Below, one piece after another: positions 13,880-46,241 of a DNA stretch of 64,000 bases. Position 1 is the first letter of the stretch, and each line of letters opens with the position of its first letter. The stretch covers positions 1 through 64,000 of the forward strand of contig MEQL01000037.1 in the NCBI GenBank assembly GCA_001770205.1, in the 5' to 3' direction. The translations under genes and the position numbers were made by a program. This DNA is from Bdellovibrionales bacterium RIFOXYD12_FULL_39_22 (GTDB lineage: Bacteria; Bdellovibrionota; Bacteriovoracia; Bacteriovoracales; Bacteriovoracaceae). The notes under the pieces were generated by a model, which was given only the letters and a program-made list of their open reading frames with translations, did not search any database and was not told the DNA's origin.

Positions 13880-14034
13880 AGTTAGGTGGAAAAAACGCAG
13901 CACGATAACCTCATAAATACCTACCGCCGTGGGAGCGTGGCCAAGAGTAACCACGGGAAAAATTTGCCGGTGACTCAATGCTACTGGAGACTTAAAGGGC
14001 AGTCAAATTATTCAGGTAATTAGTTGAAATGGCC

Positions 14035-30505: not shown

Positions 30506-31399
30506 TCAAAATTTTAAAAGGGTCTGTTCGTTGATTGGAAATTGATGTGTGCCTTCACTGGTGCAGGCATATGCTCCAGAAATATTCCCAAACAACATGC
30601 ATCTTTCTATTGGTTGTTTGTGACAGTGGCCATACAGGAAGCTTGCGACAAAGGCATCTCCTGCCCCGTTGGTATCGATAATATCTTTTCCAATATCAAT
30701 GGCCGGAAAGTGTTGCAATAAAATGCCATCTCGCACGGAAAGATAGGCACCATCTTTACCGGCCATAATAATAATATATTTTGCTATCCCATTATTAAAA
30801 ATATCTAAAATAATCGCCTTTCGTTTGTTCGAGATTCTGACGTCACTCAAAAAAACAATATCAGCGAAGTAGGCAAAGTCTCGATGATAATTGTTTTTTC
30901 CATCCCAATCATGAAGATCGGTAGAAGTAGAACCGCTAAAAGCTTTGATTGTTTTGAAGGTTTGTTTGACATAATCCATGATAGAAAGATGAACATGCGC
31001 AGTATCTGGCAATAATAGATTTAAATATTGTTCGAGGGCCGCTGACTCAACTTCACTATGACGTGGATCATAAAACGACATTCTTTGACCTTTCTTATCG
31101 ACAAAATTAACACTTCTTTTTGTGCCGGCCGAGGTGAGGCAATAGGAAAATGGAATTTGGGCCTTTTCAAAATCTTTTTTGATCAAATCTCCCCCCCAAT
31201 CATCTCCAATAAGATCTAAAAGATGGGTGCGCATTCCCAGAAAATGACAACCGCGTACTACTCCATTACCTGTATGCGCCACATATTCTTTTATCGGGCC
31301 AACCAATAGAGCATCTTGATATTGAATCGGGAAGGTGTTGATCTTTATGATCTGGTCGATCCCCACTCCTCCGACTACTAAGACATCAATTTTCTTCAC
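30506..31399 (-). CDS. PfkB-family carbohydrate/cyclitol kinase
   Basis: From a GTG at 31399 (AAGGAG with 6-base spacing) the protein has 297 residues; the ATG at 31438 lies inside the upstream gene and lacks a ribosome site. Family marks are the N-terminal VVGGVGIDQI, the GNG-VRG sugar-binding turn, the late DTNGAGDAFVASFLYG motif (anion hole and catalytic Asp), and SAGTKRSVNFVD. PfkB enzymes phosphorylate a hydroxymethyl group of sugars, nucleosides or cyclitols. It is the last gene of the cyclase operon, and its ribosome site overlaps the stop of the GH4-like gene. In acarbose clusters a PfkB enzyme (AcbK) is a 7-kinase; the equivalence here is inference. Confidence 0.85.
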   Translation of the reverse strand: MKKIDVLVVGGVGIDQIIKINTFPIQYQDALLVGPIKEYVAHTGNGVVRGCHFLGMRTHLLDLIGDDWGGDLIKKDFEKAQIPFSYCLTSAGTKRSVNFVDKKGQRMSFYDPRHSEVESAALEQYLNLLLPDTAHVHLSIMDYVKQTFKTIKAFSGSTSTDLHDWDGKNNYHRDFAYFADIVFLSDVRISNKRKAIILDIFNNGIAKYIIIMAGKDGAYLSVRDGILLQHFPAIDIGKDIIDTNGAGDAFVASFLYGHCHKQPIERCMLFGNISGAYACTSEGTHQFPINEQTLLKF

Positions 31400-31409
31400 T
31401 ACGGTCTCC

Positions 31410-32678
31410 TTAAAAAATTTGTCGAAAAAGCTCATCACTCATTTTTAGTTCAGAAAAATAGGAATGAATTTTATTTTGGGCCTTTATCATTGGGTTAATT
31501 ACACCGGCCTCCATTATGATATCTTTATCCTTTGCCAGAATCCCTTGCAGTAATAATAATTCCGCCTTTTTTAATTGTCTTAGGTGTGGATAGGTTCTTT
31601 CGTCTATGCCAATTTTTGCACTATAATCTTTTATTTCGAATGTTCCCCCAGCAAAAGACACGTTCGTTTCGACAATAGTGTCTTTTGTACCCAGTGCGAA
31701 GGGATCACTCTTTAAGGATACATTTAAAATGTGATTCCCTGAGCTATCCAGGATATTTTTTATCAGAGGAACCACCGCTAGTAAGTACCAATCACTGGAT
31801 CTTTTTCGTAGGATGGGAGGAACTTGAAATATGCTTGGCCGTTTATTATCCATGTTTTTATAAAATTCATGTTCGATATCAACAAGTAGTTGGGCGCGAT
31901 TTATGCTTTGCTTGTTTTGCTTTCCAATTATAATTTCTGGATTGAAGATAATATCCCAATTAGGGATCATCAGCGCAGGAAAAAGACTTTGATCTTTTGC
32001 TTTTGGCCGGAAGGGCGTTTCTTGGTTATGTTTTACAAAATCCGCATAGATTGATTTGCCATCAAGATAAATATCCCAAACTGAGGCGATATGATTTAAT
32101 CCAAAGTAGTCAATTGTCAGCTTTGTCTGATCAATACCCATATAGTTGGCAATCGCATTTTTGAGGCCAAGAGGATAGTCACAAACGCCAATCATGTTCA
32201 GGCCAAAGCTAGCAACTGCGTATTGCGTGATAATGCTACAGGGGTTGGTAAAGTTAATCAGGTGATATCTATTTTTTTTCCCTGACAGCATCTCAAAATA
32301 GGGGGTGATACCCGTAATGGCGCGGATGGCATTTGACATTCCGACTATTCCTAGCGTCTCATCTGCGATCAGTTGATTTTTTATTGCAATTTTTTCATCG
32401 AGATTGCGCTTTTCTATCCCACCAAAACGAATCTGGTTAAAAATGATATCGTAATCTGATGATAGTGAATGTTCAAAAGTAGTAGAAAAATTAATTCTCA
32501 CTGCATAGCGGTGTTCCAGCGGTGACAATAAGGACACCAGATACTTTAATTTTTTTTCATCTCTTCCAAATAGCGTAATGAGATGGAACGAATCAAGACA
32601 TTCGCTCTGTACTAGCGCTTCAAATAGAAGGGGGATATAGATGCTACTACCTCCCCAGATGGCAAGCCCTTTTTTCAT
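31410..32678 (-). CDS. GH4-family NAD- and metal-dependent glycosidase-like enzyme
   Basis: The 422-residue protein has the GH4 layout: Rossmann start with GGSS (9-12), QIRFGG (82-87), the DE-x-IG-Q-like RNLDEKIAIKNQLIADETLG, TNPC (144-147), metal Cys166 in GVCDYP and metal His196 in GLNH. GH4 enzymes bind NAD and Mn and cleave glycosides by oxidising C3, eliminating the aglycone and reducing again. Canonical members act on 6-phospho-glycosides or alpha-galactosides. Its start overlaps the cyclase gene by 32 bases, so it is coupled to cyclitol synthesis. It could hydrolyse a phospho-pseudosaccharide or use the same redox chemistry to epimerise or dehydrate a cyclitol; neither is shown. Confidence 0.8.
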   Translation of the reverse strand: MKKGLAIWGGSSIYIPLLFEALVQSECLDSFHLITLFGRDEKKLKYLVSLLSPLEHRYAVRINFSTTFEHSLSSDYDIIFNQIRFGGIEKRNLDEKIAIKNQLIADETLGIVGMSNAIRAITGITPYFEMLSGKKNRYHLINFTNPCSIITQYAVASFGLNMIGVCDYPLGLKNAIANYMGIDQTKLTIDYFGLNHIASVWDIYLDGKSIYADFVKHNQETPFRPKAKDQSLFPALMIPNWDIIFNPEIIIGKQNKQSINRAQLLVDIEHEFYKNMDNKRPSIFQVPPILRKRSSDWYLLAVVPLIKNILDSSGNHILNVSLKSDPFALGTKDTIVETNVSFAGGTFEIKDYSAKIGIDERTYPHLRQLKKAELLLLQGILAKDKDIIMEAGVINPMIKAQNKIHSYFSELKMSDELFRQIF

Positions 32679-33861
32679 ATTTAGAGGCCAAGGTTAATTT
32701 ACAATTGGAGATAATGTTCATATCTGCGATGGCCTGTCGTAAAATGGCAGGGTCAAAATCGGATATACTAAAAATGAAAGAGGCATGGCCAATATCCAAT
32801 GGGATCACCAGGTTGAAATCTCCATTTTTTCTAATGATAGTTTTTTCCACCCCCATCCATAAATTATCAAAGGTGCAAATCTCAGCGTCAAAAATTGGCA
32901 GGCCGATGTTGGTTAATAGGCCAATAATTCTTTCGAATGCTTCCAGACCTAGTTTCCCAAGCAAATAAGCAATCCGAGAAGAGATGGCCATGTCAATTGC
33001 AACGGCCTCCCCGTGCTTATAACGATAGACGCTTGTCATTTCTATTTGTGGACTAAGAGTGTGGCCAAAATCAACTAGTCGCTTTGTGTCAGTTTCATAA
33101 AGATTTGGCCGCAACTGAGCGGCCATGCCAGTGATTGAATCTGAAATTATATCGCAATCTATCTGTTTCATTTTGGAAAGATCAAATTTGTGTTGCATGA
33201 TATTTTGAAATCTCTGTTCTAGCATTTCAAAAAGTTGACGATTTAAAATGATTCCCATTTTTATCATTTCAGATAGCCCACATCGAATTTCTCGATCATT
33301 TAATGTTTTTAGGAAAGATGGATCGTTGATTGATAGTAATGGGAATTTATATGTACCGATTTCATTTTTGCTTTCATGGAAATTGACTGCGGCCTTTATG
33401 CCAACCCCTACATCAACCTGCGCAACTAATGTCGTATTTATTTTAATATAATCTACAGACTTTTTATAAATGGATGCTGCTAGCCCAACCGTATCTAAAA
33501 CAATCCCACCACCAATAGCAATAAAAATTCCTTGTCGATCAATTTTGTAATCTTGTGCCGCCTTACAAATTTCTTGAACCGTGTGGAGATTTTTATTTTC
33601 CTCTCCTGTTTTGATTTGCAAAAAATTAACATGTCCTTGAAGTGGAAAAAAGTAATTAAAATATGCTTGTATTTTTTGGCCATAAAGCTTGCTGACAGTT
33701 GGCCCAGAAATGATAAGTATTTTTCGGCCTTTGCATCTTTCATACAAAAAAGAATTTTCGGGAGAAAAAAGATTTTGACATGAAATGACCTGATAGGTTT
33801 TTAAAATACGCTCTTCAATTTGAGCGAGTTGAGTTATGCTATCATGTTTATCATCTGCCAT
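32647..33861 (-). CDS. Sugar-phosphate cyclase of the 2-epi-5-epi-valiolone synthase (EEVS) branch
   Basis: The protein has 404 residues from the ATG at 33861 (GGAG 8 bases before); numbering here includes two residues of an upstream TTG extension. It has the dehydroquinate-synthase fold with NAD motif GGGIVLD (119-125). The cyclase region reads DVGVGIKAAVNF (152-163), where DHQ synthase has the MVDSSIGGKTGIN type. The later block is RLVDFGHTLSPQIE (263-276), with Asp for the usual Asn and Pro for the second His, then KHGEAVAID (284-292). These changes and the length over 400 are marks of EEVS-type cyclases that turn sedoheptulose 7-phosphate into C7-cyclitols. The related desmethyl-4-deoxygadusol synthases remain possible. 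It follows a GT4 gene by about 80 bases. Confidence 0.85.
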   Translation of the reverse strand: MADDKHDSITQLAQIEERILKTYQVISCQNLFSPENSFLYERCKGRKILIISGPTVSKLYGQKIQAYFNYFFPLQGHVNFLQIKTGEENKNLHTVQEICKAAQDYKIDRQGIFIAIGGGIVLDTVGLAASIYKKSVDYIKINTTLVAQVDVGVGIKAAVNFHESKNEIGTYKFPLLSINDPSFLKTLNDREIRCGLSEMIKMGIILNRQLFEMLEQRFQNIMQHKFDLSKMKQIDCDIISDSITGMAAQLRPNLYETDTKRLVDFGHTLSPQIEMTSVYRYKHGEAVAIDMAISSRIAYLLGKLGLEAFERIIGLLTNIGLPIFDAEICTFDNLWMGVEKTIIRKNGDFNLVIPLDIGHASFIFSISDFDPAILRQAIADMNIISNCKLTLASKYEKRACHLGR

Positions 33862-33947
33862 AGGCAAATCTCCGTTCGATTGCGAAATAGGTACAGTCTA
33901 AAAAAAAATAAATCGTACGACAAGCTCAATAAAATAGTGTCAAAATA

Positions 33948-35147
33948 TTACAGTAGTTGCCTATATATTTCGAAAGTATCTTGTATTAACTTATCAAATT
34001 GTGGAAGTTGAAACGTGTAAGGTGTTGTTAATGGACGATTATTGATATGATTCTGAACATCTATCATTGCCTGGCAAAATCCTGTTATATCCAGTGGATT
34101 TATAATTCGGAGAGCTTCTTTTTGGCCACTATTTGGAATTAATTCCGCAATGCCACAGAATTGAGAAAGAAGCAGAGGGCGATTTAGGGTGATCGCATCG
34201 TAGGCAACCATATTAAAAGGGTCATATAAACTTGGAATTATAACAATATCACAATTTGCTAAAAATTGAAGATATGTCTTTCTATCTGATTGCCAATCAA
34301 ATAGCTGGAGCTTTTTACTTCGTATTAGTTGGTGGTAACGAATTTCATTTTCTCGGTCCAGGCATTCAGCGAGTGTTGCAAAGCGACACTCCGAAAAATT
34401 ATTCATTACGAAAAGCTCGCCCTCATAGTTTTGTTGATAAAGATAGAAGGCCTCAATCAATTCTTGAAGCCCTTTGCGATAATCCCAGCGCCCAGCGTAA
34501 CCAAATCTTGTGGTCTTGTGTCGGCCGTTTAAATCCTTCTGATTATTATTGTTGGCAGCACGAGAAGGCGGATAAATACAGCTCACTGGACAGCTAAAAT
34601 TTCGGTGATAAAGCTCTGCAATTTTCTGGTCAAACCGACTATTAAAAATTAGATGATCTGCGCAATCAAACATATCCTTTTGTGCTGTTACTGATTGATT
34701 AAAATTTGTTTTTTTTGTATTTTTGTTAATGATGTATTCATGCTGGATGATGGAAGAAATCCAGTAGATGATCTTTGGCCGAATGCCAGGAGTTGCCTTC
34801 AAGCGCTTTATTAGCGATCCCCAAAAATAGCTAACAGAGATAACTAGATCAAAAGATTTGAGCTTCGCAAAAATTTCATCACCACAATCAAAACAATTAA
34901 CACTCTCAAATTGTACTTCATTGTAATAGTCATTTATTTCAAAATTTTCCATCGTCTTTTTATATGAAATATCATCACGGCCACTCTCAATATGTGAAAA
35001 TATTTTGATGGCGGATAGATTAAAATTATGGTTAATTTGTTCCAAGAGGAGCGAAACGTAGTAATTTATCGCTAGGTTGTGGCCCTTAAGATAATTCAGG
35101 GACAAAAAAGCAATCGATATTTTTTTTTCCTCTTTAACTTGCTTCAT
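33948..35147 (-). CDS. GT4-family glycosyltransferase
   Basis: The 399-residue protein is a GT-B fold transferase. The N-terminal half is divergent. The C-terminal half carries RFGYAGRWDYRKGLQELIEAF (about 213-233) and IIPSLYDPFNMVAYDAITLNRP (about 303-324), the E/D-x7-E-type nucleotide-sugar site of GT4, with Asp-Pro replacing the more usual E-PFG start. It should transfer a sugar from a nucleotide donor in the cytoplasm. It is the first gene of the cyclase operon and is divergent from the glycogen-synthase-like gene across 86 bases. The acceptor may be the cyclitol product; this is inferred from neighbours only. Confidence 0.82.
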   Translation of the reverse strand: MKQVKEEKKISIAFLSLNYLKGHNLAINYYVSLLLEQINHNFNLSAIKIFSHIESGRDDISYKKTMENFEINDYYNEVQFESVNCFDCGDEIFAKLKSFDLVISVSYFWGSLIKRLKATPGIRPKIIYWISSIIQHEYIINKNTKKTNFNQSVTAQKDMFDCADHLIFNSRFDQKIAELYHRNFSCPVSCIYPPSRAANNNNQKDLNGRHKTTRFGYAGRWDYRKGLQELIEAFYLYQQNYEGELFVMNNFSECRFATLAECLDRENEIRYHQLIRSKKLQLFDWQSDRKTYLQFLANCDIVIIPSLYDPFNMVAYDAITLNRPLLLSQFCGIAELIPNSGQKEALRIINPLDITGFCQAMIDVQNHINNRPLTTPYTFQLPQFDKLIQDTFEIYRQLL

Positions 35148-35233
35148 ATTTAGGTCAAATTATTTCTTATGCTGTCAACAACGTCAATAGCGTGTATATA
35201 TTAGTTTGATCTGTTAAAAATTAGAGGTGGTTC
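35148..35233. promoter_or_regulatory. Divergent promoters between the two glycosyltransferase genes
   Basis: On the minus strand TTGACG (35182-35187) and AATAAT (35159-35164) are 17 bp apart, a good sigma-70-type promoter for the GT4-cyclase operon. On the plus strand CTGTCA (35172-35177) and TATATA/TATATT (35195-35202) are 17-19 bp apart, a weaker promoter for the other glycosyltransferase. The -35 elements lie side by side, so the two directions may be regulated together. Confidence 0.55.
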
Positions 35234-36832
35234 ATGCATATAGTTGAGTGTTTTATCGAGGCCGGTGGTTTTGACTATAATCTTATTCGAGGTGGGATCT
35301 CCGTCTATATTTGGAATCTAGCACGAAAATTCAAACAACATGGCCACAAAGTATCTGTTGTTACGGCCGCTAACGGACAAATTCCCTATTTAAAAAGTAA
35401 GTATCATTTAAAGGAACTTAACTATAAACATCAGTATGTGCTGCCTTTAGTGCTGGATCAGGCCATTTGGAAAAATCACCCTGCCCAAGTAGACATTTCT
35501 CTTTCTACCAAGGCCTTTCAGGTGGAGATTGATGGAGTTGAATTTTATTTTTTGTCCAACGAATATTTAGATATGTATCCAGCAAGCTGCTTTCCCCCTT
35601 ATGAGAGCAAGGGGAAAGAGCTTGGTTTTTTTAAGCCAATAGTTTATCAGGTTGATGCCATAGAATTTATCAAGCAGTATTTTAAAAATGAAAAGTGCTA
35701 TTTGCATGCGCATGAGCCCTACTATCAATATCTTTTTCCCCTTGCATTTAGAGACGATAATTTAAAAGCTATGATTAGTACCGTTCAAAGTAATATGCCA
35801 ATTAATAAAAAAATATATCGTCCGAAGCTTGAAAAAATTCTATCCTTGCTGGGAATTTCCGTAGATCTAGATCAATACATGGATAAATTAGATGAGCAAG
35901 ATCCGGAAGTCATCAAAATGAGAAAAACACTACCGATCACTCATTTGTTTTATAACTATGATGATAAAAAATACATCAACTTTTACTCTCTCATGTTGGA
36001 CCATTCCGATAAGATTGATTTTCTTTCCGAAGGGCATCTGGAATTTTACACGAGCTTTGCAAACACTCCTTTTGAGTTCTTTTTTAAGAAACTCAAAGTT
36101 TCTCACTTCGTTGAAAAAAAGCGAGAGAAGTTATTTGTAGGTTGGTGTGGAACTTCCGATGAGTGGCTGAGCAAGGCCCCAGACAAAAGCGGTCGAAAAA
36201 AGACCTTGGATGCATTAGGGTTGAAAGATAATCTTCCAACATTCTATCATAACGCTCGCTTTGCTATAAACCATAAGGGGCAATATGAGCTAATGCAGGC
36301 AATTGATCGTTTCCTTTCCGCAGGAGGAGAGGCCAACTTTATAGTACGTTGTCTTTGTTCTAAAGGAATTGAATTTCCATATTTTCATGAAGTCAAAAAT
36401 AAATTCCCCCATAATGTATATCTTGAGTGGGAAACCAAGGCCGTGGAAACACTTATGCGCCACGTTTCGGCCAGCGATTTTTGTATCTTCCCTTCAAAGT
36501 TTGAAATGGATACGTTTTTAATTGCGCAGGGAGAAGCAATGTTTTTTGGACTAGTTCCAATTGCTACCAACCAAAAAGGGATGCAGCATTGGAATCATCA
36601 TCTACCGATTGAGCATCTGGAGGCCACTGGTTTTGCACTTAAGAGATCTTTTGAAGAAAATGACCAGCAATTGGTGGCAGAGATTGTCGATAGAATCAGG
36701 GATGCTATTGCTCTAAAGCAAGATGCCGCTGAAACTTATGTCAAGCTTTCCAACAATTCAAAGGAGCTGGCAAAAAAATATAGCTGGGAGCATGCCGCAC
36801 AGGCACACTTAGACGCCTTCCGCTCTATCTAA
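35234..36832 (+). CDS. Glycogen-synthase-like (GT5/GT4, GT-B fold) glycosyltransferase; pseudoglycosyltransferase candidate
   Basis: The 532-residue protein starts MHIVECFIEAGG and RGGISVYIWNLARKFKQHGHKVSVVT, the GG-loop and first helices of glycogen/starch synthases, and has LHAHEPYYQYLFPLA where those have a HaHDW site. The C-terminal half has HKGQYELMQAIDRFLSAGG and FPSKFEMDTFLIAQGEAMFFGLVPIATNQKGM, the nucleotide-binding end with a Glu in the usual place. AGAGGTGG precedes the ATG. The enzyme is cytoplasmic. In acarbose synthesis a starch-synthase-like protein, AcbS, joins the cyclitol and amino sugar parts, so this is the natural candidate for such a coupling step here. A normal glucosyltransferase is the alternative. 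Confidence 0.78.
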   Translation: MHIVECFIEAGGFDYNLIRGGISVYIWNLARKFKQHGHKVSVVTAANGQIPYLKSKYHLKELNYKHQYVLPLVLDQAIWKNHPAQVDISLSTKAFQVEIDGVEFYFLSNEYLDMYPASCFPPYESKGKELGFFKPIVYQVDAIEFIKQYFKNEKCYLHAHEPYYQYLFPLAFRDDNLKAMISTVQSNMPINKKIYRPKLEKILSLLGISVDLDQYMDKLDEQDPEVIKMRKTLPITHLFYNYDDKKYINFYSLMLDHSDKIDFLSEGHLEFYTSFANTPFEFFFKKLKVSHFVEKKREKLFVGWCGTSDEWLSKAPDKSGRKKTLDALGLKDNLPTFYHNARFAINHKGQYELMQAIDRFLSAGGEANFIVRCLCSKGIEFPYFHEVKNKFPHNVYLEWETKAVETLMRHVSASDFCIFPSKFEMDTFLIAQGEAMFFGLVPIATNQKGMQHWNHHLPIEHLEATGFALKRSFEENDQQLVAEIVDRIRDAIALKQDAAETYVKLSNNSKELAKKYSWEHAAQAHLDAFRSI

Positions 36833-37819
36833 AAATATTCCCATGCCGATTAAGCAGGGCTCTTTTTCGCTTGCTAATGTAAACATGGTTTCGACTTGAT
36901 TTTCGTTTAATCCAAACAACGCAAATCGTTTAATTTGTTTTATGAGTGAGCTTAGGTAACGCGTGCCAATTGCCTGCGCAAAACCACCGAAGATTATATA
37001 GCGCCGAATACCGATGGCCGCATAGATAAGTCCGATTGCCTCAGAAAGTGGAGCAGTCGTTTGATCTAAAATATCTGTGGTAAAAGGATCATCTTCTAAA
37101 ATGGCCTGAACAATGTGATGTGTAGTTAAGTCCTGGGCCTTAGGGCACAAAGCTGAGAGTTTTGAATTAATAAATTTTTCTGGCGATTTTGCTGATTCCA
37201 ATTTAACCTTGGCCAAAACGCCTCGACCAGAGGCAATTGCTCCCAAATGACCTTTGCCTCCACAATCACAAAGCGGAGCATTTTCAGAATGGTCGCACGT
37301 ATAGTGGCCAATTTCTCCGCCATATCCAGTATCATTAATCAAAATAGAATTATTATAAAAAACTTTGTTGCCAATTCCAGAGCTTACCGTAATGGCACAA
37401 AAGGGTTCATTTTCCGAAGAAGCAAAATACCACGTAGCGGCGCTAACGTCGTTGATGGCCACGACATCTCTTTGCATTTTTTTCTTTAAAATTTTTTTTA
37501 AATTCAAATCAATGTTTAGGTTGCCAGTTATTGTGGGGGCCCGATGAATAACCCCTTGAGGAGAGACCGGGCCGGCAAAAGCGATTCCAATTTTAGAAAA
37601 AGTAAATGAGCTGTTTTCCTCTATGTATGTTTCCATATTAAGCAATAGATGATTAATGAACTTATCTTCCAAATTATTCTGACTGTCTTGCCTAGTGGCC
37701 AAGTAATTAAGCGTTTCAATTTTTTTAATGGCAGTTATTTTTTGTACAGAGGGGATATAAGTGGCCAAGCGAAAATATGTTCCCCCAAGGTCAATAACTA
37801 GATATGCGTTTTCTTTCAT
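36809..37819 (-). CDS. ROK-family sugar/cyclitol kinase with altered zinc motif
   Basis: From the ATG at 37819 the protein has 336 residues; a GTG two codons earlier, one base after the upstream stop, is equally possible. ROK marks: LVIDLGGTYFRLA (ATP phosphate loop), GIAFAGPVS, INDVSAATW (catalytic Asp) and the GYGGEIGHYTCDH segment. The zinc site reads CDCGGKGHLGAIASG, where classic ROK kinases have CxCGxxGCLEA: His replaces the third Cys and Gly the Glu. Valiolone kinases ValC and AcbM belong to this glucokinase-like family, so it is a candidate cyclitol 7-kinase; glucose is the default alternative. It ends the aminotransferase operon and overlaps the 3' end of the convergent glycosyltransferase by 24 bases. 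Confidence 0.82.
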   Translation of the reverse strand: MKENAYLVIDLGGTYFRLATYIPSVQKITAIKKIETLNYLATRQDSQNNLEDKFINHLLLNMETYIEENSSFTFSKIGIAFAGPVSPQGVIHRAPTITGNLNIDLNLKKILKKKMQRDVVAINDVSAATWYFASSENEPFCAITVSSGIGNKVFYNNSILINDTGYGGEIGHYTCDHSENAPLCDCGGKGHLGAIASGRGVLAKVKLESAKSPEKFINSKLSALCPKAQDLTTHHIVQAILEDDPFTTDILDQTTAPLSEAIGLIYAAIGIRRYIIFGGFAQAIGTRYLSSLIKQIKRFALFGLNENQVETMFTLASEKEPCLIGMGIFLDRAEGV

Positions 37820-37826
37820 AGGCACA

Positions 37827-38939
37827 CTACCATTCAGTTAAAAAATTGCGGTCCATAAACCTATTTTGCACAATTTCATTTTCTAATATGATTGAGTTTT
37901 TTATTGATGTTTTTCCAAGTATTTTTGCCCCTGATAAAACGATACTATTTTCAATTAAAACATCACTGTCGATAGTAACATGTGGATAGATCAGCGAGTT
38001 CACAATTTGGGCCGATCCGCTTGATAAGTCTGGCACAATAATAGAATTTTTTATTCTTCCGCTGTCTCTCACATATTTTCTTGATATTTCGGGGTAAATG
38101 GTGCGAGGCATATTATCTATAGTTAGTTCGGAATCTTTTGCTAGTAAATTAAGATTCGATTGCAAATATCTTTCTACTGTCCCTAGATCTTCCCAGTAAT
38201 TTTTAAAATAAAAGCATTTGATTGTTTCCTTTCCTGCTAGCATTGCGGGAATGATATCTTTACTGACGTCGTGACGCCAGGAGGTTTTTGCCAATTTTTC
38301 CAAATATTCCCAGAGTTTTATTTTGTTAAAAAAACAGACCGCCGAAAAAACATATGACGATGTTGGATTGGGACATTTTTCGACAAAGTTAATAAGATTT
38401 TCTTTCTCATCAACTTCTACCATTCCAAAGAGCTTTACATATTCTAAGTCAATTTTTTGGTAACCAATTGTTAGTGCTGCATTGCTCTCACGATGCAATT
38501 TATACATTTCGTGATAGTCAAAATTGTAGACATGATCGCTATGCAAAAGGAGTAGATCATCGACATCATCAGTAAAAATAAATTGGGAATTTTGAATAAG
38601 TGCATCCGCGGTTCCTTCTTCTTTAGGTCGTATAAAGCGGGAAAAGACTGTTTCCAAATCTTCATGATGAACTCTATCATAGTATCCAAAATTTAATGTT
38701 AATCCTCTATTATTTGGTTTGGCCCAAGTGTCCAATAAATACTTTGTTAATTTTTTTTCTTCAAAATAAGACAAAAGCACTAGTTCCGAAATATTTGACC
38801 TCAATACATTGTTCAAAGAAAAATCAATTAAGTGACAACAGTTTCCGTAGGGGATCAGCGGTTTCAGGCGATTTTGTCCCAAGCGTCTCATGCGGACACC
38901 TAATCCTCCGGCCAATAATAATGCCTTTACCCTTTTCAT
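37827..38939 (-). CDS. GlgC-like nucleotidyltransferase (ADP-sugar pyrophosphorylase type)
   Basis: The 370-residue protein opens with KALLLAGGLGVRMRRLGQNR followed by LKPLIPYG, the nucleotide-binding P loop of ADP-glucose pyrophosphorylases, then HLIDFSLNNVLRSNI as in GlgC. The substrate Asp is in LHSDHVYNF, the EKCPNP loop corresponds to the sugar-binding site, and left-handed beta-helix repeats follow in the last 90 residues. It would activate a sugar- or cyclitol-1-phosphate with an NTP. ValB and AcbR of validamycin and acarbose clusters are GlgC-like, which fits the context; ADP-glucose for glycogen is the alternative, but no branching enzyme or phosphorylase lies nearby. It is 6 bases after the maltokinase-like gene. 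Confidence 0.82.
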   Translation of the reverse strand: MKRVKALLLAGGLGVRMRRLGQNRLKPLIPYGNCCHLIDFSLNNVLRSNISELVLLSYFEEKKLTKYLLDTWAKPNNRGLTLNFGYYDRVHHEDLETVFSRFIRPKEEGTADALIQNSQFIFTDDVDDLLLLHSDHVYNFDYHEMYKLHRESNAALTIGYQKIDLEYVKLFGMVEVDEKENLINFVEKCPNPTSSYVFSAVCFFNKIKLWEYLEKLAKTSWRHDVSKDIIPAMLAGKETIKCFYFKNYWEDLGTVERYLQSNLNLLAKDSELTIDNMPRTIYPEISRKYVRDSGRIKNSIIVPDLSSGSAQIVNSLIYPHVTIDSDVLIENSIVLSGAKILGKTSIKNSIILENEIVQNRFMDRNFLTEW

Positions 38940-38945
38940 AAAATC

Positions 38946-40424
38946 CTATTCTCCCTTTGAGTCGAGTTGAGTACTTGTTGGTATGTTTTTTAGAAGATAG
39001 GAGATATCGACATATTTAAATTGCCCCCGGCCGTTATAGGAATAATTATATTCTAACTCTTTTAAAAGCCGAGAGTAATAGCAAATCATTTCAAAGATTC
39101 GAAGATTTTCTTTCCCATAACTATTGCTGATGAGTGACTCTACTTTTTCCATCCACAAACTAGTAGCTAAAATCAAATTTTGCAGTTTTTTACTGCTACT
39201 TGAAAAATCCATGTCATTTAGTAGCAACATGATGATCTCATCTTTATCTGCCCATGGCGGAATCATCTTGGCCACAACATCTTGTAGTTCACTATATGAA
39301 AAATACTCAATTGATCTTTTGATTGAAACCAAATCCACCAGCGTTGATTGGGGTCTAATTCCATCACTATCAAAAATTTGCGGGTCGATAAAAGCGACTC
39401 GTTGATCCTCTCCAATAATAATATGAGACATGTGTAAATCGTTGTGGGCGTCAGTGGCACTGGGAATTAGTTTCTCTTTATTTTTGTCAACATATTTATA
39501 AAAACTTATAAGCTCTGATAGCGCGTTAGCAATTATTTTATGGTATTTGTCAAACTGCTTGTCTTTATTGATCAACGCTGAAAGCCACTTTATTTTTTCT
39601 AAATCGCTGCTTATAAAATCGAAGTTGGCAAAATTATTGTTTTTTGAATTTAATAAAGTGTGATAGCGCCGCAAATCATCACCAATCTTTACAAGCAGTG
39701 CTCCCAGCGATTCATCGATAGCATTGCTTACGATGTTTGCAATGTTAACTTTTTTTTCATCTCCTGTTACGATGGATGAAAAAATTTGTCTTATGCTTTT
39801 TCGAAGTACCACGTCTAGACTATCTCCAGTAAAAAACTCTCTAATCTCTATCAGTCGAAACTTTTCTCCGCGTGTCCTATTGTTGTAGGCAAGAGTGGCC
39901 AGGGTAGTATCGTGCAACGCCCTATCCCAATAATTGAAACAATCTCCACCTTGCACATGATTTAATCTCTTTAAAATTTTGCAGGTGAGATGTCTTCCTT
40001 CGGCATTAAAATAGAAGTTGTGATTAGTTGATTCTGGCAAGACTTTCAAATTTTTCAAATCCAATAGATCCTTTTGAATGAATGCTCCGTGAAACTCAAT
40101 CGTGGCCCCTCCCGCCGTGGCCAAGCTTTTTATGGCGGCCAGATGGGCAATTACAAAAAGCCCTGATAGGGGAGAAGATTCCATCTCGCGAATAACCAAA
40201 CCATCTCGGACAATAATGGGGATGAAATAGTATAAATCTTTTGTTGATGCTTTTGCGTTTACTATTATCAAGTATACGCTTTCGTTGTTTTCGATTTGAA
40301 ATGATGCATAGTCATAAAGAGAAAATTGTAAATCATAAGATGCGAGATCTCCAAACCACCGTTTGGTTCTAATAAATTCTGGAAGTTTCTCTGTAACAAA
40401 TTTTTTTAGTGTTCTATCAATCAT
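38946..40424 (-). CDS. Maltokinase-like APH-fold kinase
   Basis: From the ATG at 40424, one base after the aminotransferase stop, the protein has 492 residues. An N-terminal cap with LPEFIRTKRWFGD matches the start of maltokinase (Pep2/Mak), and a C-terminal aminoglycoside-phosphotransferase-like domain has DAHNDLHMSHIII (Brenner motif) and FIDPQIF (metal Asp). Maltokinases make maltose 1-phosphate, the donor for GlgE. No glgE or treS is here, and the DFG-like motif reads IDPQ. It may phosphorylate a maltose-like or pseudo-disaccharide intermediate, or protect the host by phosphorylating the end product as kinases do in antibiotic clusters. The latter points are inference. Confidence 0.72.
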   Translation of the reverse strand: MIDRTLKKFVTEKLPEFIRTKRWFGDLASYDLQFSLYDYASFQIENNESVYLIIVNAKASTKDLYYFIPIIVRDGLVIREMESSPLSGLFVIAHLAAIKSLATAGGATIEFHGAFIQKDLLDLKNLKVLPESTNHNFYFNAEGRHLTCKILKRLNHVQGGDCFNYWDRALHDTTLATLAYNNRTRGEKFRLIEIREFFTGDSLDVVLRKSIRQIFSSIVTGDEKKVNIANIVSNAIDESLGALLVKIGDDLRRYHTLLNSKNNNFANFDFISSDLEKIKWLSALINKDKQFDKYHKIIANALSELISFYKYVDKNKEKLIPSATDAHNDLHMSHIIIGEDQRVAFIDPQIFDSDGIRPQSTLVDLVSIKRSIEYFSYSELQDVVAKMIPPWADKDEIIMLLLNDMDFSSSSKKLQNLILATSLWMEKVESLISNSYGKENLRIFEMICYYSRLLKELEYNYSYNGRGQFKYVDISYLLKNIPTSTQLDSKGE

Positions 40425-40425
40425 T

Positions 40426-41724
40426 TTACTTTTCCGGCCCAATTGTCCTCAGAACTTTTTTCATCCTTTCTAAAACTTCCATCAACACATTTTCTTCTGT
40501 TATAAAAGGAGGGGCCAGGCGAACAATATTGCCACCAAGACTCACCTTTATCCCATCTTTTATGCACTTTAAAAAAAATTGCCTTGCATAATTAGCTGAT
40601 GGCCTTTTTGAGTTTTTATCTTCGACAAACTCGATTGCGTGTAAAAGACCTATTCCACGAACATCTCCTACAAAGGAAAATTCATCCATCATCTGCTGCA
40701 ATTTTATTGAAATAATTTCACCTAGCTTTACAATATGCTGGCCCAAATTGAGGCGGGATAGTTCTTTTAATGTAGCAGCGGCGGCGGCCAGGCCCAGTGG
40801 ATTAGAAGCAAACGTTGAAGAGGATGAACCTGGAGCACTGAACTCATGGGAGTTTAAAATTTCTTTCTTTCCTGCCAAAACTGCGAAAGGAAATCCCGAG
40901 GCCAATCCTTTGGCCATTATCACCAGGTCTGGATTGATATTATAGTAGGAAGAGGCCAAAAATGATCCAACTCTTCCACCGCCAGTGACTACTTCATCCG
41001 CAACAAGCAATACTCCATTTTTTTGGCAGGCCCGGGAAATAATATCCCAGTATTCTTTTGGTGGGACGATCACGCCACCGGCCCCCTGTATTGGTTCAAA
41101 AAAAAGTGCGGCAACACTTTGGTTTTGACAGACTTCCGCCTCTACTTTCTGAGCACAAAGTATTTCGCATGATGGATATGAAAGAGAGAATGGACAGCGA
41201 TAGCAGTAAGCACGATATGCCAAAACAGAATCGGCCGGCAGTGAATTATTTCCAATTTTCCAATGAACCAGCATTCTGGCGCCTAACGTTTTTCCATGAA
41301 AACCATAACGAAGGGCGGCAAGTTTGGATCGTGCAGGTGATGCAAAACAAAATATTGCGCGAATGGCCGCCTCTACAGCTTCTGCCCCCGTAGTTAAAAA
41401 ACAGAAAGTGTCTATTTCCGCTGGTAAATTTTCCGCCAGTATTTTACAACACTCCAACCTCGGGGGAGTAGTAAAGTCATGCACATTCCATAATTTTTCA
41501 ATTTGCTTATGCAACGCTTCTCTAACAAATGGATTATTATGGCCAAGTGATTGGGTAAATATTCCGGAAGCAAAATCAAAATATTTTCTCCCCTCGATAT
41601 CATAAACATAAACCCCTTCGCCTCTTTCTAAAACTACGCGAGACAGCAAGGCCTCTTCTGAAATGCCAGCGACAAGATGTTTTTGTTCTTCGAAAATATA
41701 TTGATCTTGTATTGAATCACTCAT
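40426..41724 (-). CDS. Class III PLP-dependent aminotransferase
   Basis: The 432-residue enzyme has the fold-type I class III signatures: GAEAVEAA (113-120), GFHGKTLG (141-148), VADEVVTGGGRVGSF (241-255, cofactor Asp243) and MAKGLASGFPF with the Schiff-base Lys272. ACHGKT-type substrate loops and late GGNIVRLAPPF are in place. Class III enzymes transfer amino groups to aldehydes or ketones in metabolites such as GABA, acetylornithine and keto-cyclitols. It overlaps the cupin gene by ATGA. An aminotransferase beside a C7-cyclase is what a C7N-aminocyclitol pathway needs (ValM, AcbV roles), but its substrate is not determined. Confidence 0.88.
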   Translation of the reverse strand: MSDSIQDQYIFEEQKHLVAGISEEALLSRVVLERGEGVYVYDIEGRKYFDFASGIFTQSLGHNNPFVREALHKQIEKLWNVHDFTTPPRLECCKILAENLPAEIDTFCFLTTGAEAVEAAIRAIFCFASPARSKLAALRYGFHGKTLGARMLVHWKIGNNSLPADSVLAYRAYCYRCPFSLSYPSCEILCAQKVEAEVCQNQSVAALFFEPIQGAGGVIVPPKEYWDIISRACQKNGVLLVADEVVTGGGRVGSFLASSYYNINPDLVIMAKGLASGFPFAVLAGKKEILNSHEFSAPGSSSSTFASNPLGLAAAAATLKELSRLNLGQHIVKLGEIISIKLQQMMDEFSFVGDVRGIGLLHAIEFVEDKNSKRPSANYARQFFLKCIKDGIKVSLGGNIVRLAPPFITEENVLMEVLERMKKVLRTIGPEK

Positions 41725-42080
41725 CCGCGTTTACTTGTCTGATAGACGATAATTAACATATCTTTTGTTCCGGTGTTTTCTAGGCCATGTTCTGCAAAGT
41801 GGGGGTTTTCGATGATGTCCCCAGGATATACCGCTATATTATTTCCATCTATCTGCATTTGTCCATTGCCTTCAACAATAATGTAGCGTTCGGTATTCTC
41901 TCCATGCATATGCAGGCCGATGGAAGAACCGGGAGGAACTATTGTGAAATCAATGAAATCAACCACCAGCTGGCCATCATCATTTGCATAAAGACGATGA
42001 GTTAAGACGTGGCCTAATCCACCGTGGCAATTTGGTTGTTTAACTAGAAGTTTCTCAAATAAGTTGAGTGCTCTTTTCAT
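41721..42080 (-). CDS. Small cupin-fold protein, metal binding
   Basis: From the ATG at 42080 the protein has 119 residues, the usual single-domain cupin size; a longer reading frame would run into the divergent amylase gene. Motif 1 is GLHMHGENTERYIIVEGNGQ (two His and a Glu), and motif 2 is YPGDIIENPHFAEHGLENTG (His). These bind a divalent metal in a small barrel. Cupins of this kind include isomerases, epimerases and sensors. It is the first gene of the aminotransferase operon, so it may act on, or sense, a cyclitol or sugar intermediate. Confidence 0.8.
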   Translation of the reverse strand: MKRALNLFEKLLVKQPNCHGGLGHVLTHRLYANDDGQLVVDFIDFTIVPPGSSIGLHMHGENTERYIIVEGNGQMQIDGNNIAVYPGDIIENPHFAEHGLENTGTKDMLIIVYQTSKRG

Positions 42081-42143
42081 GGTGAAAAATATCGTAGCAG
42101 AAAAGATTGGATATTTCATGGATATTCTGACACATTTTATAAC

Positions 42144-45100
42144 ATGATAAAATTTAAAGAGAAGCATTTTTGTCTCCTCTTTTTCGTTCTACTAATCGCC
42201 ACAACTTCGCAGGCGATGGAGCTAAAAAAGACGGTGATGGTTCATCTTTTTGAATGGAGATGGACGGATGTAGCACAAGAGTGCGAAAAATTTCTAGGGC
42301 CCAATGGATTTAGTGCTGTGCAAATATCTCCACCCAACGAGCACGCTGTAATTAAAAATTATCCATGGTGGCAGCGATATCAATTTGTCAGTTATAAATT
42401 GGAAAGCAGAAGTGGCAACAGGCAGGAGTTTGTTGATATGGTGCAAAGATGCAATAAAGCGGGAGTTGCTATTTATGCCGATGTTACTTTAAATCACATG
42501 GCCGGATCATTTGGCCCGGATGATAGTGAACGAGTTGGATATGCGGGAAGCAAATTTGCCCACTATAACTATCCCGGTATTTATGAAAGGAGCGATTTTC
42601 ATTATTGCCAAAAACAAAACGATTCTTCACGCGAAATTAAAAGCTATAAGGATGCGTGGGAGGTGCAAAATTGTGAGCTGGTCTCTTTGGCCGATTTAGA
42701 TACTGCCTCAGAAAAAGTTAGAAGTACCCTTGCGGCATTTTTAAATGATTTGATTAGCATTGGAGTTCGCGGTTTTAGAATAGATGCTGCCAAGCATGTC
42801 TCGCCGGCGGACACAACGGCGATATTAGCAAAAGTAAGCAGTAAACCTCATATCTTCCAAGAATTTTATAATATCCCAGGGGAGCCATTTGATGTAAATC
42901 AATTCTTGCAAAATGGAGATGTGATTGAGGGGAGTTTTGGATATAGATTAACCGCTGCCTTTTTAAGAGATAAAATGATCACCCATGTAAAAGACATTGA
43001 ACAGGGACTGATTGATTCAAAAAGAGCGATCACCTTCGTTGACAATCATGATAAGCAACGAGAGATTAACTATTTAACGTATAAGCAAGGCAATCTTTAC
43101 GATATGGCCAATATTTTTATGCTCGCTTATCCCTACGGTTATCCGGTGATAATGTCAGGGTATCGCTTTGATCTAAAAGATCAGGGCCCTCCCTCGGACC
43201 AAAATGGAAATACAAAGCATATATATATCAAGGGAAAATTTCTATGCACTGAAATTGGTTTTTCCTGTGAACACCGAAAAAGACCGATTAAGAATATGAT
43301 TAGTTTTAGAGAATATACTGCGGGAGAAAAAGTAATCGACTGGTGGACAAACGATTTTAATCAATTTGCATTTGCTCGAGGCCGCAAAGGCTTTGTGGCC
43401 TTCAATAATGAAAACACAACACTGCAAAGGAAGTTAAGCACCCATCTTCTTCCTGGACGGTATTGCGATATTATTAGTGGGGACTTTGATTCTAAAAGTA
43501 AAACATGTACCGGTAATATTGTTGACGTAAATAACGAGGGTGTGGCCTTAATAATTCTCCCTCCTCATACATCATTGGCGATCTATGAAAAGGCCCGGAT
43601 GGAGACTCAAATAACACTCGTAGGAAATCTGCAAAAAACTTTAGGTGATTTTTCGGACTGGAATCCTTCTTCTTCTAAAACCAGGATGGAATATCTTGGC
43701 AGTGGGCTATATCATTTTAAAACCTTTCTTCCCAAAGGATCATATGAATACAAATTTGCCATAGGTGGCAGTTGGTTAGAAAATTACGGGCAAAATGGAA
43801 CTCTTTCCGGAAAGAATATTCCCCTCGTTGTTCCCGAGGGCCAAGAGATCATTTTTTATTTTAGCGATAAAACGCATAAAGGTACTTCTAGTCTAGATTA
43901 TAAATTACAAAGTAATCCGCCAGTGCTTTTTTTATCAGACGAGCGGATGATAAAACTAGTAGATCACAGCTTTAACAATCTTTTTTACACCACGGTAACT
44001 TTGCAAGATGGAAATTATAATTTTGTGGTGCAATATCAAAATAATAAATATCCACTTCCGCCCTTGAAATTAAATAGAATTCAAGATGTTTCGCTCTATT
44101 TCGATTTAAGCAAACTAGAGACATCTTTTGACTTACATACACTGGAAGAAGCTCAAATCCTTCATGATAGCTTCAATGATCTCTATCGAAAACCATTTCA
44201 TGCCATTGAAGAAAACGAAGCGATTACTATCAAGCTCTCAGTAATTCCAAACAAGTTAAAGAAAGTAGAACTTTTTTTGGTACAAGAAAATATTCAAAAG
44301 CGAGATAAGGTTGAATATACGGAATATAAGACTATTTCCATGAAAAAAACGGCAGAAAGTGATTTGAGGGAGTTTTGGTCTGCAACACTTACCTTTCCTG
44401 AAAAAGGAGTATATGGATATAAATTTCTCATTAACGGTAATGAAGAATATGGTGACGATCAATTTCCAGGAGGTGTTGGCCAACTATATAAAAAAGATGG
44501 CCGATATTTTCAGATTACGGCATATGATAAAAACTTCCACCCACCAGAGTGGTTGCAGCAGGGAATTATCTATCAAATTATTCCGGATCGTTTTTATAAT
44601 GGTGATTCCAAGAATGATTATGTAAAAAAATATGCGCGAGGCCTTGATCCTATTTTTCATAGTCAATGGAATGCGATTCCCTCCAATGGCGGGCCACTTG
44701 ATCACGATTCTTTTTACTGCAATGATTACTACGGAGGAGATTTACAAGGTATAATTTCCAAACTGGATTATCTGCAAGCAATGGGAGTTTCCATTATATA
44801 TCTTAATCCTATTTTTAACAGCGGATACAACAGTAAATATGATACTGGAGATTATCTTTCAATTGATCCAATGTTTGGAACAAATGATGAGTTTGCAAGG
44901 CTTGCTTCCGAATTACAAAAGCGTAACATGCGTCTCATCCTTGATGGAATTTTTAATCATGTCGGTGATGACTCTATCTATTTTGACCGTTACGAAAAAT
45001 ACCCTTGGGTAGGTGCTTACGAATATTGGAGCAAAGTCTATAAGAAAATTAATGATCAAAAACTATCAATTGAAGATGCAAAGAAAGCTACAACCCAAGA

Positions 45101-46241
45101 ACTTTTAAGTAACGGACAGAGGTTTCATCCATCAAATTGGCAAAACTGGTTTACCATCGAAAACAATTTTATTTCCACTCCAAAGAGAGGAGTGCCTCGT
45201 TTCCAATATGAGGAGTGGTGGGGATACGACAATCTGGCGGTGTTTAATGATCAAAGCGAATTAAATAATCCAGAATGGAGAAAATATTTTTTAGATGGCC
45301 CGGACTCTGTGGCGCAAAGATGGATTAGAGCTGGAAGCGCTGGATGGAGGCTAGATGTCGTTGCTGAGATGGATACAACCTTTATTAATAAATTTAGAAT
45401 GGCCGTCAAATCTCAAAAAACTTTAAGTGGAGATGAGCCTATTATTTTAGGAGAAGTTATTCCCGATGCTTCTCATTATTTGCTTGGTGATAAATTTGAT
45501 TCTGTCATGAATTATCGTTTTCTAAGGGCCGTAATAAAAGACTTTCTTGTTCGAGGTAAGGCGGAAGATGCTTATCAAATATTAACTAATGTTTTTCAAA
45601 GCTATCCACCAGAGGCACTAAGGGCAACAATGAATCTGCTTGATTCTCATGACTCCATGCGAGCAATTTATCAATTAGGTGGCGGGATTGCCAAAAAACA
45701 TTTGGTGGCAATCCCCGGGAAAAATTTTGACTACGAACTTGGAAAAAAAAGATTCAAAATAGCACTGGCCTTCATGATTGGCCTGCCGGGTGTCCCGACA
45801 ATCTATTATGGTGATGAAGTTGGTCTTTATGGTGGAGAAGATCCTGATAATCGCAGAACTTATCCTTGGGGACGAGAAGATGTTGGGTTGCTTGCATATA
45901 CAAAAAAAGTACTGAACTTTAGAAAAAAACATTCTGAGATTTTTTCTCGGGGAGATATCAAGACGTTGTACGCAAAAGGTGATGTCTATATTTTTAAACG
46001 ATCTTACAAAGATAGCGTTTTTATTTTTGGCCTTAACCGTGGAGATTCGATATTTGAAATGACTAAAGTTATTTCGGGGATCAATTTAAAAAAGTGGTGT
46101 GATATTATGCCGGAAAATAATAAGCAATATTTAGAGTTTTCGGTAGATCAAATTCCTCCGGCCTCTGTGCGCATTATTGAAAATTGCCAACATCGGCCAG
46201 ATACCCGAGTTTTACATTCGGGATTGTTTGGGAATGACTAA
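42144..46241 (+). CDS. Secreted two-module alpha-amylase (GH13 + starch-binding-like + GH13)
   Basis: The 1365-residue protein has a signal peptide (cleavage near residue 24, SQAMELK). Module 1 (about 28-480) is an animal/Streptomyces-type alpha-amylase: DVTLNH (113-118), GFRIDAAKH (nucleophile Asp214), Glu240 and FVDNHD (Asp303). A beta-rich X25-like module follows (about 488-590, KGSYEYKFAIGGSWLENYG), then an E-set domain to about 790. Module 2 (about 803-1300) is a neopullulanase/cyclomaltodextrinase-type GH13: YQIIPDRFYNGD, DGIFNH, GWRLD (Asp1071), ILGE (Glu1104) and DSHD (Asp1170). Both triads are complete. It should degrade starch or glycogen outside the cytoplasm. It is divergent from the cupin-aminotransferase operon across about 60 bases. 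Confidence 0.93.
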   Translation: MIKFKEKHFCLLFFVLLIATTSQAMELKKTVMVHLFEWRWTDVAQECEKFLGPNGFSAVQISPPNEHAVIKNYPWWQRYQFVSYKLESRSGNRQEFVDMVQRCNKAGVAIYADVTLNHMAGSFGPDDSERVGYAGSKFAHYNYPGIYERSDFHYCQKQNDSSREIKSYKDAWEVQNCELVSLADLDTASEKVRSTLAAFLNDLISIGVRGFRIDAAKHVSPADTTAILAKVSSKPHIFQEFYNIPGEPFDVNQFLQNGDVIEGSFGYRLTAAFLRDKMITHVKDIEQGLIDSKRAITFVDNHDKQREINYLTYKQGNLYDMANIFMLAYPYGYPVIMSGYRFDLKDQGPPSDQNGNTKHIYIKGKFLCTEIGFSCEHRKRPIKNMISFREYTAGEKVIDWWTNDFNQFAFARGRKGFVAFNNENTTLQRKLSTHLLPGRYCDIISGDFDSKSKTCTGNIVDVNNEGVALIILPPHTSLAIYEKARMETQITLVGNLQKTLGDFSDWNPSSSKTRMEYLGSGLYHFKTFLPKGSYEYKFAIGGSWLENYGQNGTLSGKNIPLVVPEGQEIIFYFSDKTHKGTSSLDYKLQSNPPVLFLSDERMIKLVDHSFNNLFYTTVTLQDGNYNFVVQYQNNKYPLPPLKLNRIQDVSLYFDLSKLETSFDLHTLEEAQILHDSFNDLYRKPFHAIEENEAITIKLSVIPNKLKKVELFLVQENIQKRDKVEYTEYKTISMKKTAESDLREFWSATLTFPEKGVYGYKFLINGNEEYGDDQFPGGVGQLYKKDGRYFQITAYDKNFHPPEWLQQGIIYQIIPDRFYNGDSKNDYVKKYARGLDPIFHSQWNAIPSNGGPLDHDSFYCNDYYGGDLQGIISKLDYLQAMGVSIIYLNPIFNSGYNSKYDTGDYLSIDPMFGTNDEFARLASELQKRNMRLILDGIFNHVGDDSIYFDRYEKYPWVGAYEYWSKVYKKINDQKLSIEDAKKATTQELLSNGQRFHPSNWQNWFTIENNFISTPKRGVPRFQYEEWWGYDNLAVFNDQSELNNPEWRKYFLDGPDSVAQRWIRAGSAGWRLDVVAEMDTTFINKFRMAVKSQKTLSGDEPIILGEVIPDASHYLLGDKFDSVMNYRFLRAVIKDFLVRGKAEDAYQILTNVFQSYPPEALRATMNLLDSHDSMRAIYQLGGGIAKKHLVAIPGKNFDYELGKKRFKIALAFMIGLPGVPTIYYGDEVGLYGGEDPDNRRTYPWGREDVGLLAYTKKVLNFRKKHSEIFSRGDIKTLYAKGDVYIFKRSYKDSVFIFGLNRGDSIFEMTKVISGINLKKWCDIMPENNKQYLEFSVDQIPPASVRIIENCQHRPDTRVLHSGLFGND

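Follow-up and report, generated by a model that had tools for sequence, protein, structure and literature searches.

Acarbose-type compounds serve as drugs and crop protectants. In published accounts, AcbS is a pseudoglycosyltransferase that forms a C-N bond, AcbI is its glycosyltransferase sister, some AcbS homologues occur without an AcbI partner, and an AcbV homologue is found in most putative pseudo-oligosaccharide clusters (PMC9200736). For the acarviostatin (sct) cluster of Streptomyces, a published table places SctJ, a protein of 138 aa proposed to be a 2-epimerase, between SctC and SctM (PMC8234114). Here we describe a locus at positions 30506-46241 of a contig from Bdellovibrionales bacterium RIFOXYD12_FULL_39_22 (assembly GCA_001770205.1, contig MEQL01000037.1; the stretch analysed, positions 1 to 64,000, is called the window). 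Judging from its sequence, the locus is quite probably a divergent acarbose-family cluster, which would make a C-N-linked pseudo-oligosaccharide containing a C7 cyclitol. Support is good for the kind of cluster and weak for the details.

Gene content and related loci

The eleven genes named in an earlier reading of this DNA (the original prediction) are all found in place, as intact and tightly packed open reading frames in the list made for the window (Table 1). Pfam and NCBIfam agree with the family predicted for every gene except the third kinase; the families recognised are PfkB, GH4, the DHQ_synthase fold, GT4, a starch-synthase-like glycosyltransferase, ROK, GlgC-like, class III aminotransferase and cupin. 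One minus-strand block runs from 35147 to 30506 (GT4, cyclase, GH4-like, PfkB) and another from 42167 to 36809 (cupin, aminotransferase, kinase, GlgC-like, ROK). Between them lies the single plus-strand glycosyltransferase gene, and the secreted amylase gene diverges from the cupin gene, head to head with the cluster.

Table 1. Genes of the locus, with their positions in the window and the basis of each assignment
Product	Position	Strand	Basis
PfkB kinase, AcbK/SctK-like (acarbose 7-kinase homologue)	30506-31438	-	Pfam PfkB; 34% to AcbK (SE50/110-type genome), 39% to plasmid homologue
GH4-like NAD enzyme	31410-32678	-	Pfam GH4; PDB 1up7/1s6y alignments; Cys166 and His196 kept, GH4 tyrosine lost
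Sedoheptulose-7-phosphate cyclase (predicted), nearest gac/sct type	32647-33867	-	Best PDB match 4p53 (ValA); tree; diagnostic residues
GT4 glycosyltransferase, possible AcbI stand-in	33948-35147	-	Pfam
AcbS/AcbI-family glycosyltransferase, nearest AcbS by identity, without C-terminal extension	35234-36832	+	Identities; trees (near the junction of AcbS, AcbI and a third group)
ROK kinase, SctM/AcbM-like (cyclitol 7-kinase homologue)	36809-37825	-	37% to plasmid homologue, 23% to AcbM
GlgC-like nucleotidyltransferase, AcbR-like	37827-38939	-	42% to AcbR, 44% to plasmid homologue
AcbU-like phosphotransferase, HNDLH motif	38946-40442	-	hhalign probability 98.4 (412 columns); 25% to AcbU (312 aa, E 9e-20)
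Class III aminotransferase, AcbV-like	40426-41724	-	51% to AcbV, E 1e-147
Cupin, SctJ-like (proposed 2-epimerase), probable start 42080	41721-42167	-	40% to plasmid cupin
Secreted amylase, two GH13 domains with X25 between	42144-46241	+	Pfam; PDB matches; signal peptide by eye

Eight of these genes, that is, all except those for the GH4-like enzyme, the GT4 and the amylase, have their matches together, and with little change of order, in a single cluster on a plasmid of Streptomyces sp. NBC_00467. This locus, found by a cyclase search of plasmids, is among the closest relatives found; its order is cyclase, cupin, aminotransferase, three ABC genes, phosphotransferase, glycosyltransferase, GlgC-like, ROK, RmlD-like, NUDIX, HAD, MalQ and PfkB. 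A scan of 84,980 species genomes with the glycosyltransferase alignment, which seeks two short peptides and which distant forms can escape, gave 57 loci, all 57 from Actinomycetota by record title, the sct cluster of S. coelicoflavus NBRC 15399 being one of them. We compared the window genes with the 48 loci of at least 19 kb that carry the glycosyltransferase (47 of the 57 plus the plasmid locus, L023; near-copies were kept, including three from one S. alfalfae assembly). At E 1e-6, matches were found in 46 loci for the GlgC-like protein, 45 for the cyclase, 43 for the ROK kinase, 42 for the aminotransferase, 39 for the cupin, 31 for the PfkB kinase, 25 for the third kinase and 20 for the amylase, and in none for the GH4-like and GT4 proteins. 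Cyclase, aminotransferase, glycosyltransferase and GlgC-like protein occurred together in 41 of the 48. Since eight genes are matched in one plasmid cluster and the four core matches co-occur in most loci, we conclude that the grouping is more than chance.

The reference homologies come from tblastn, as the gene caller misread several GC-rich loci, and the window homologues span 23 to 51% identity to the reference proteins. With the acb cluster of Actinoplanes sp. SE50/110 (an SE50/110-type Actinoplanes genome shows the acb order) the window shares AcbV (51%), AcbS (47%), AcbR (42%), AcbK (34%), AcbC (32%), AcbU (25%) and AcbM (23%). With the Streptomyces sct (acarviostatin) and gac (acarbose) clusters it shares the cyclase branch, the SctJ cupin, the SctM-type ROK kinase and homologues of AcbU, AcbS, AcbR, AcbV and AcbK; adjoining amylases are a further common feature (PMC8234114). 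Identities to the locus of S. coelicoflavus (L046) are 20 to 50%; in strain NBRC 15399, frames of 393, 350 and 324 aa have the sizes given for SctC, SctM and SctO of strain ZG0656 (PMC8234114). A set of acb-like clusters with a single glycosyltransferase of the family in the fetched stretch (the NBC_00467 plasmid, L047, L054, L055 and L065) resembles the window in this respect and in the order cupin-AcbV-(...)-AcbU-(AcbS)-AcbR-ROK, whereas in the window the glycosyltransferase lies on the opposite strand and the cyclase is relocated. The likeness to acarbose and validamycin clusters that had been proposed stands for the acarbose and acarviostatin side (acb, gac, sct); validamycin is less alike. 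A text search found no literature linking an acarbose biosynthetic gene cluster to Bdellovibrio.

Homologues of all the kinases AcbM/SctM, AcbU and AcbK are present in the window, an assignment by homology. The third kinase has no Pfam or NCBIfam match; aligned with AcbU proteins by hhalign it keeps an H-x-DLH motif, and this comparison places the protein earlier called maltokinase-like as AcbU-like. The AcbR identity extends over 356 aa. For the aminotransferase, no PDB chain was matched at E 1e-60 or better. The cupin family was rightly predicted, and we correct the start: homology begins at 42065 and the probable start is an internal ATG at 42080, so that the amylase gene would not be overlapped. 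AcbO was dropped as its counterpart because both the window and the plasmid cupins are unmatched in the SE50-type region (E 1e-5), a difference from the acb cluster. The position and size of SctJ fit; the cupin homologue of S. coelicoflavus sits between SctC and SctM, and by its 40% identity to the plasmid homologue an SctJ-type cupin would fill the 2-epimerase slot (AcbO or SctJ).

Two side observations concern the related loci. In the Streptomyces alfalfae XY25 assembly the same cluster lies on three scaffolds (L035, L036, L039) with identical match figures, as real copies or as an assembly artefact. Frames resembling GMC oxidoreductases by eye lie near acb-like genes at 17501-18997 of L054 and 12852-14387 of L074, and may be a further cyclitol redox enzyme.

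The cyclase and the AcbS/AcbI-family glycosyltransferase

The best PDB match of the cyclase is 4p53 (ValA), followed by 5tpr, which we take to be the DDGS of Anabaena. A 64-row tree groups the window cyclase with 17 gac/sct-type rows (Shimodaira-Hasegawa-like approximate likelihood ratio test, SH-aLRT, 97) from acarbose/acarviostatin-type loci of Streptomyces, Kitasatospora, Hamadaea and Nocardiopsis. The group of sedoheptulose-7-phosphate (SH7P) cyclases, with ValA, Actinoplanes AcbC and 5tpr, encloses it (SH-aLRT 100); outside that group fall three dehydroquinate synthases (DHQS), the enzymes of relatives and the cyclases of L074, L077 and L078. The 64 rows were taken from 85 by dropping 21 near-copies, and they include one fragment of the window locus (L084). 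Left out of the 85 were L002 and L003 (window), L036 and L039 (copies of L035), L059 and L093-L097 (loci represented in a different form) and, as single items, the short stretches L105, L106 and L112-L115. In 16 alignment columns the two kinds of SH7P cyclase share a residue that none of the three DHQS has; the window cyclase carries this SH7P-type residue in 13 of them. It carries Asp266 and Pro273, as do EEVS and the sct-type rows, where DHQS have Asn and His. Identity is 42 to 43% to the NBC_00467 plasmid cyclase and 32% to AcbC.

On the tree and these residues, the enzyme is assigned as an SH7P cyclase and not a DHQS, and a separate AroB is encoded on another contig of the genome; a place among the DHQS, named beforehand as a refutation, was not what we found. 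The original prediction had put the cyclase in the EEVS branch. Its SH7P part holds, but the tree places the enzyme in the gac/sct-type branch, beside that of ValA and AcbC. A sunscreen pathway (DDGS and mycosporine-like amino acids) was set aside: the cyclase groups with sct-type rows and not with 5tpr, and no methyltransferase or ATP-grasp family occurs among the cluster genes. Over 143 genomes searched, its own included, all other cyclase matches have at most 36% identity, except one of 46% over 66 residues. Six relatives (G003, G054, G055, G086, G107, G116) show two sugar-phosphate-cyclase matches apiece. Separately, L074, L077 and L078 (Streptomyces sp. 8K308, Allokutzneria) combine an AcbS-family glycosyltransferase and an AcbV-like aminotransferase with a cyclase outside the SH7P group, perhaps a third kind of pseudosugar.

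By family names alone (GlgA-like, GlgC, ROK, PfkB, amylase), the locus could be an operon for starch/glycogen or for the use of maltose, plus a spare AroB: the glycosyltransferase would act as glycogen synthase, the GlgC-like protein would form ADP-glucose and the cyclase would be a DHQS. We consider this most improbable. The glycosyltransferase scores 43 bits against a cut-off of 328 with the NCBIfam glgA model, and the GlgC-like protein 221 against 425 with glgC, yet they are 47% and 42% identical to AcbS and AcbR; the cyclase is assigned elsewhere and the genome holds its own AroB. A cyclase match is present in 45 of the 48 long loci, though in at least two of these (L074, L078) the cyclase lies outside the SH7P group; the neighbouring genes are thus not found conserved without a cyclase as a glycogen operon. 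The earlier rejection of a plain starch/glycogen cluster is upheld on these grounds.

The glycosyltransferase on the plus strand is 47% identical to AcbS and 37% to AcbI, and AcbI matches no other window protein. Its identity is 43.7 to 49.0% (mean 46.8%, n = 44) to AcbS-type rows, 35.6 to 42.8% (mean 38.9%, n = 34) to AcbI-type rows and 33.5 to 37.7% (mean 35.9%, n = 12) to a third group; rows were assigned to these groups from their N-terminal motif and their locus, near-copies included, with row L071 set aside. At 16 positions parting AcbS from AcbI, it has the AcbS residue at 10, the AcbI residue at 4 and neither at 2. It is the sole match of its family in its own genome.

Weighing the assignment and the proposed route

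A number of observations count against reading the locus as an acarbose-family cluster, beginning with these two proteins. At 33 columns parting the sct type from the ValA/AcbC type, the window cyclase follows sct at 10, the other type at 6 and neither at 17; the tree was a short search run without bootstrap, and the program flagged long branches and an unusual residue composition of the window row. Its place in the tree and these mixed residues mark the cyclase as an ancient lineage of its own close to the sct type. In trees of 43 and 29 of 92 rows (L036, L039 and L059 outside the 92), the window glycosyltransferase branches on a long branch near the junction of AcbS, AcbI and the third group. 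The approximately unbiased test rejects its kinship neither with AcbS (p 0.206) nor with AcbI (p 0.201), and in the best tree it is placed with the third group on weak support (82/79); here too the program flagged long branches and an unusual residue composition of the window rows. It is 532 aa long, against more than 700 given for AcbS and AcbI in a published account, whose authors find the two hard to separate from sequence alone (PMC9200736). According to PMC8234114, none of the sct enzymes had been characterised.

Several known steps are also without their known enzyme. With acb and plasmid proteins as queries, AcbL, AcbJ, AcbQ, an SctO-like protein and the RmlA-like, RfbB and ABC exporter proteins of the plasmid were unmatched in the window at E 1e-4. 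The window thus differs from the acb cluster in having no AcbL, AcbJ or AcbQ match and no second glycosyltransferase of the family. It differs from sct/gac in having no match to SctO-like, glucanotransferase, dTDP-sugar and ABC exporter proteins, in a genome without a second family glycosyltransferase, and from the NBC_00467 plasmid in that its RmlD-like, NUDIX, HAD, MalQ and ABC proteins are unmatched. No separate AcbI and no phosphatase match were found in the window. No RmlA exceeds the cut-off in the assembly, which is 94.6% complete; RmlB is encoded on another contig, among genes that by eye resemble surface-polysaccharide genes. The supply of dTDP-4-keto-6-deoxyglucose is therefore doubtful and the substrate of the AcbV-like enzyme uncertain, so a different amino sugar could serve as acceptor or, as in validamycin, an aminocyclitol could.

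If the missing genes (SctO/AcbL, phosphatase, glucanotransferase, exporter, a second glycosyltransferase of the family) had been lost, the locus would be a decayed acarbose cluster without a product. This is very unlikely: all eleven frames are intact and tightly packed, albeit with homologues at 23 to 51% identity, and two enzymes not seen in other clusters, the GH4-like and the GT4 proteins, are present.

These two had no match at E 1e-6 in 58 compared loci, and the GH4-like protein is rare: a search of 143 genomes found it in 2, one of them its own. It matches 6-phospho-beta-glucosidases (E about 4e-26) and shares with 1up7 and 1s6y the NAD-binding start, the NFTNP motif and a Cys and a His aligned with what we take to be the GH4 metal ligands. 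In two pairwise alignments, the tyrosine corresponding to Tyr241 of BglT, presumably the GH4 catalytic base, is replaced by Glu or Asn; of the NAD site, metal site and catalytic tyrosine that mark a GH4 glycosidase, the tyrosine is thus absent. GH4 catalysis proceeds by removal of a proton alpha to a ketone, by beta-elimination and by transfer of a hydride. Since this is the only family among the eleven expected to act with NAD on such a cyclitol downstream of the cyclase, and since the cluster is without SctO, the enzyme may dehydrate the cyclitol, reduce it or do both; without the base tyrosine it may be left with the hydride step alone. A comparison with SctO showed no kinship (hhalign probability 0.1).

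The route below, with the roles of the GH4-like and GT4 enzymes, the product and its use, is our interpretation of the observed genes, their homology and order and the place of the cyclase. The cyclase would convert sedoheptulose 7-phosphate to a valiolone-type C7 cyclitol, which the cupin would epimerise and the ROK kinase phosphorylate at C7. Dehydration and/or reduction by the GH4-like enzyme might then give a valienol-type phosphate; phosphorylation at C1 would fall to the AcbU-like kinase, and the AcbR-like enzyme would yield a nucleotide-activated pseudosugar. The AcbV-like enzyme would place an amino group on the acceptor sugar (or cyclitol), the AcbS-type enzyme would couple both units through a C-N bond, and the GT4 could take the part of AcbI by attaching one more sugar.

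An extracellular amylase inhibitor or a sugar carrier is the kind of product to which the amylase and the AcbK-like kinase point. A C7 cyclitol destined for a cell-bound glycan or glycolipid, as a surface decoration, would agree with the unmatched acb-type exporter, the additional GT4 and the surroundings of RmlB, but we judge it unlikely. The gene for the secreted amylase diverges from the cluster, and acb/sct clusters likewise have amylases beside them (a match in 20 of the 48 long loci; see also PMC13240717); the cluster holds the AcbK-like kinase, and no flippase or polymerase family was seen among its genes. The acid motif in the first domain of the amylase is FQEFYN, against FQEVID in 1jd9.

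The aminocyclitol pseudo-oligosaccharide cluster of the original prediction is supported by the core acb/sct homologues and the cyclase branch, with the product itself still an interpretation. A more specific version is tentative, and we hold it to be somewhat improbable as a whole: a non-actinomycete, perhaps a predatory one, might make a new pseudo-oligosaccharide by a remodelled acarbose pathway. Both dehydration and reduction of the C7 cyclitol would fall to a GH4-fold enzyme whose elimination and hydride-transfer chemistry now serves biosynthesis, and a GT4 would replace AcbI; the product would block the amylases of rivals or carry starch fragments for its producer, whose double amylase would tolerate it. 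If true, it would add a natural product not known before and, in the GH4-type protein, a candidate enzyme for making cyclitols; the presence of such a rebuilt cluster in a different phylum would show the reach of this chemistry. The locus also bears on why bacteria make amylase inhibitors, a question still open between carrier and competitor exclusion (PMC9200736).

Genome context and neighbouring genes

All related loci from the scan are actinomycete ones, and the present locus lies outside that group. The NrdJ ribonucleotide reductase of the window is 67 to 72% identical to that of five of 12 other genomes of the same family (the remaining seven gave weaker, partial or no matches) and 60 to 61% identical in two genomes from outside that family; the GC content is even, at 36.5 to 42.5%. 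From this kinship and evenness we conclude that the contig is native and not a stray actinomycete contig. LpxC exceeds the cut-off in the genome, as it does in four of the 14 controls, namely the Gram-negative E. coli, Caulobacter, Synechococcus and Bacteroides; none does in the actinomycete control, Corynebacterium. Its presence indicates that the host is no actinomycete. Among 368 genomes from the phylum, this one included, no other has a glycosyltransferase of the window type at E 1e-10; an ancient horizontal transfer would fit.

Repeats in the 28-47 kb region belong to short families only and look like chance. Elsewhere in the window, a 924-aa protein at 11204-13978 has no NCBIfam family. 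Directly beside the cluster, at 29255-30451, lies a gene for a 398-aa protein with no Pfam family, preceded by a weak TetR-like gene (28611-29234). Finally, in agreement with the Bdellovibrionota-like origin first proposed, though no proof of it, seven proteins of TIGR02147, which we take to be a family of Fibrobacter and Bdellovibrio, exceed the cut-off in the genome, compared with none in each of the 14 controls.

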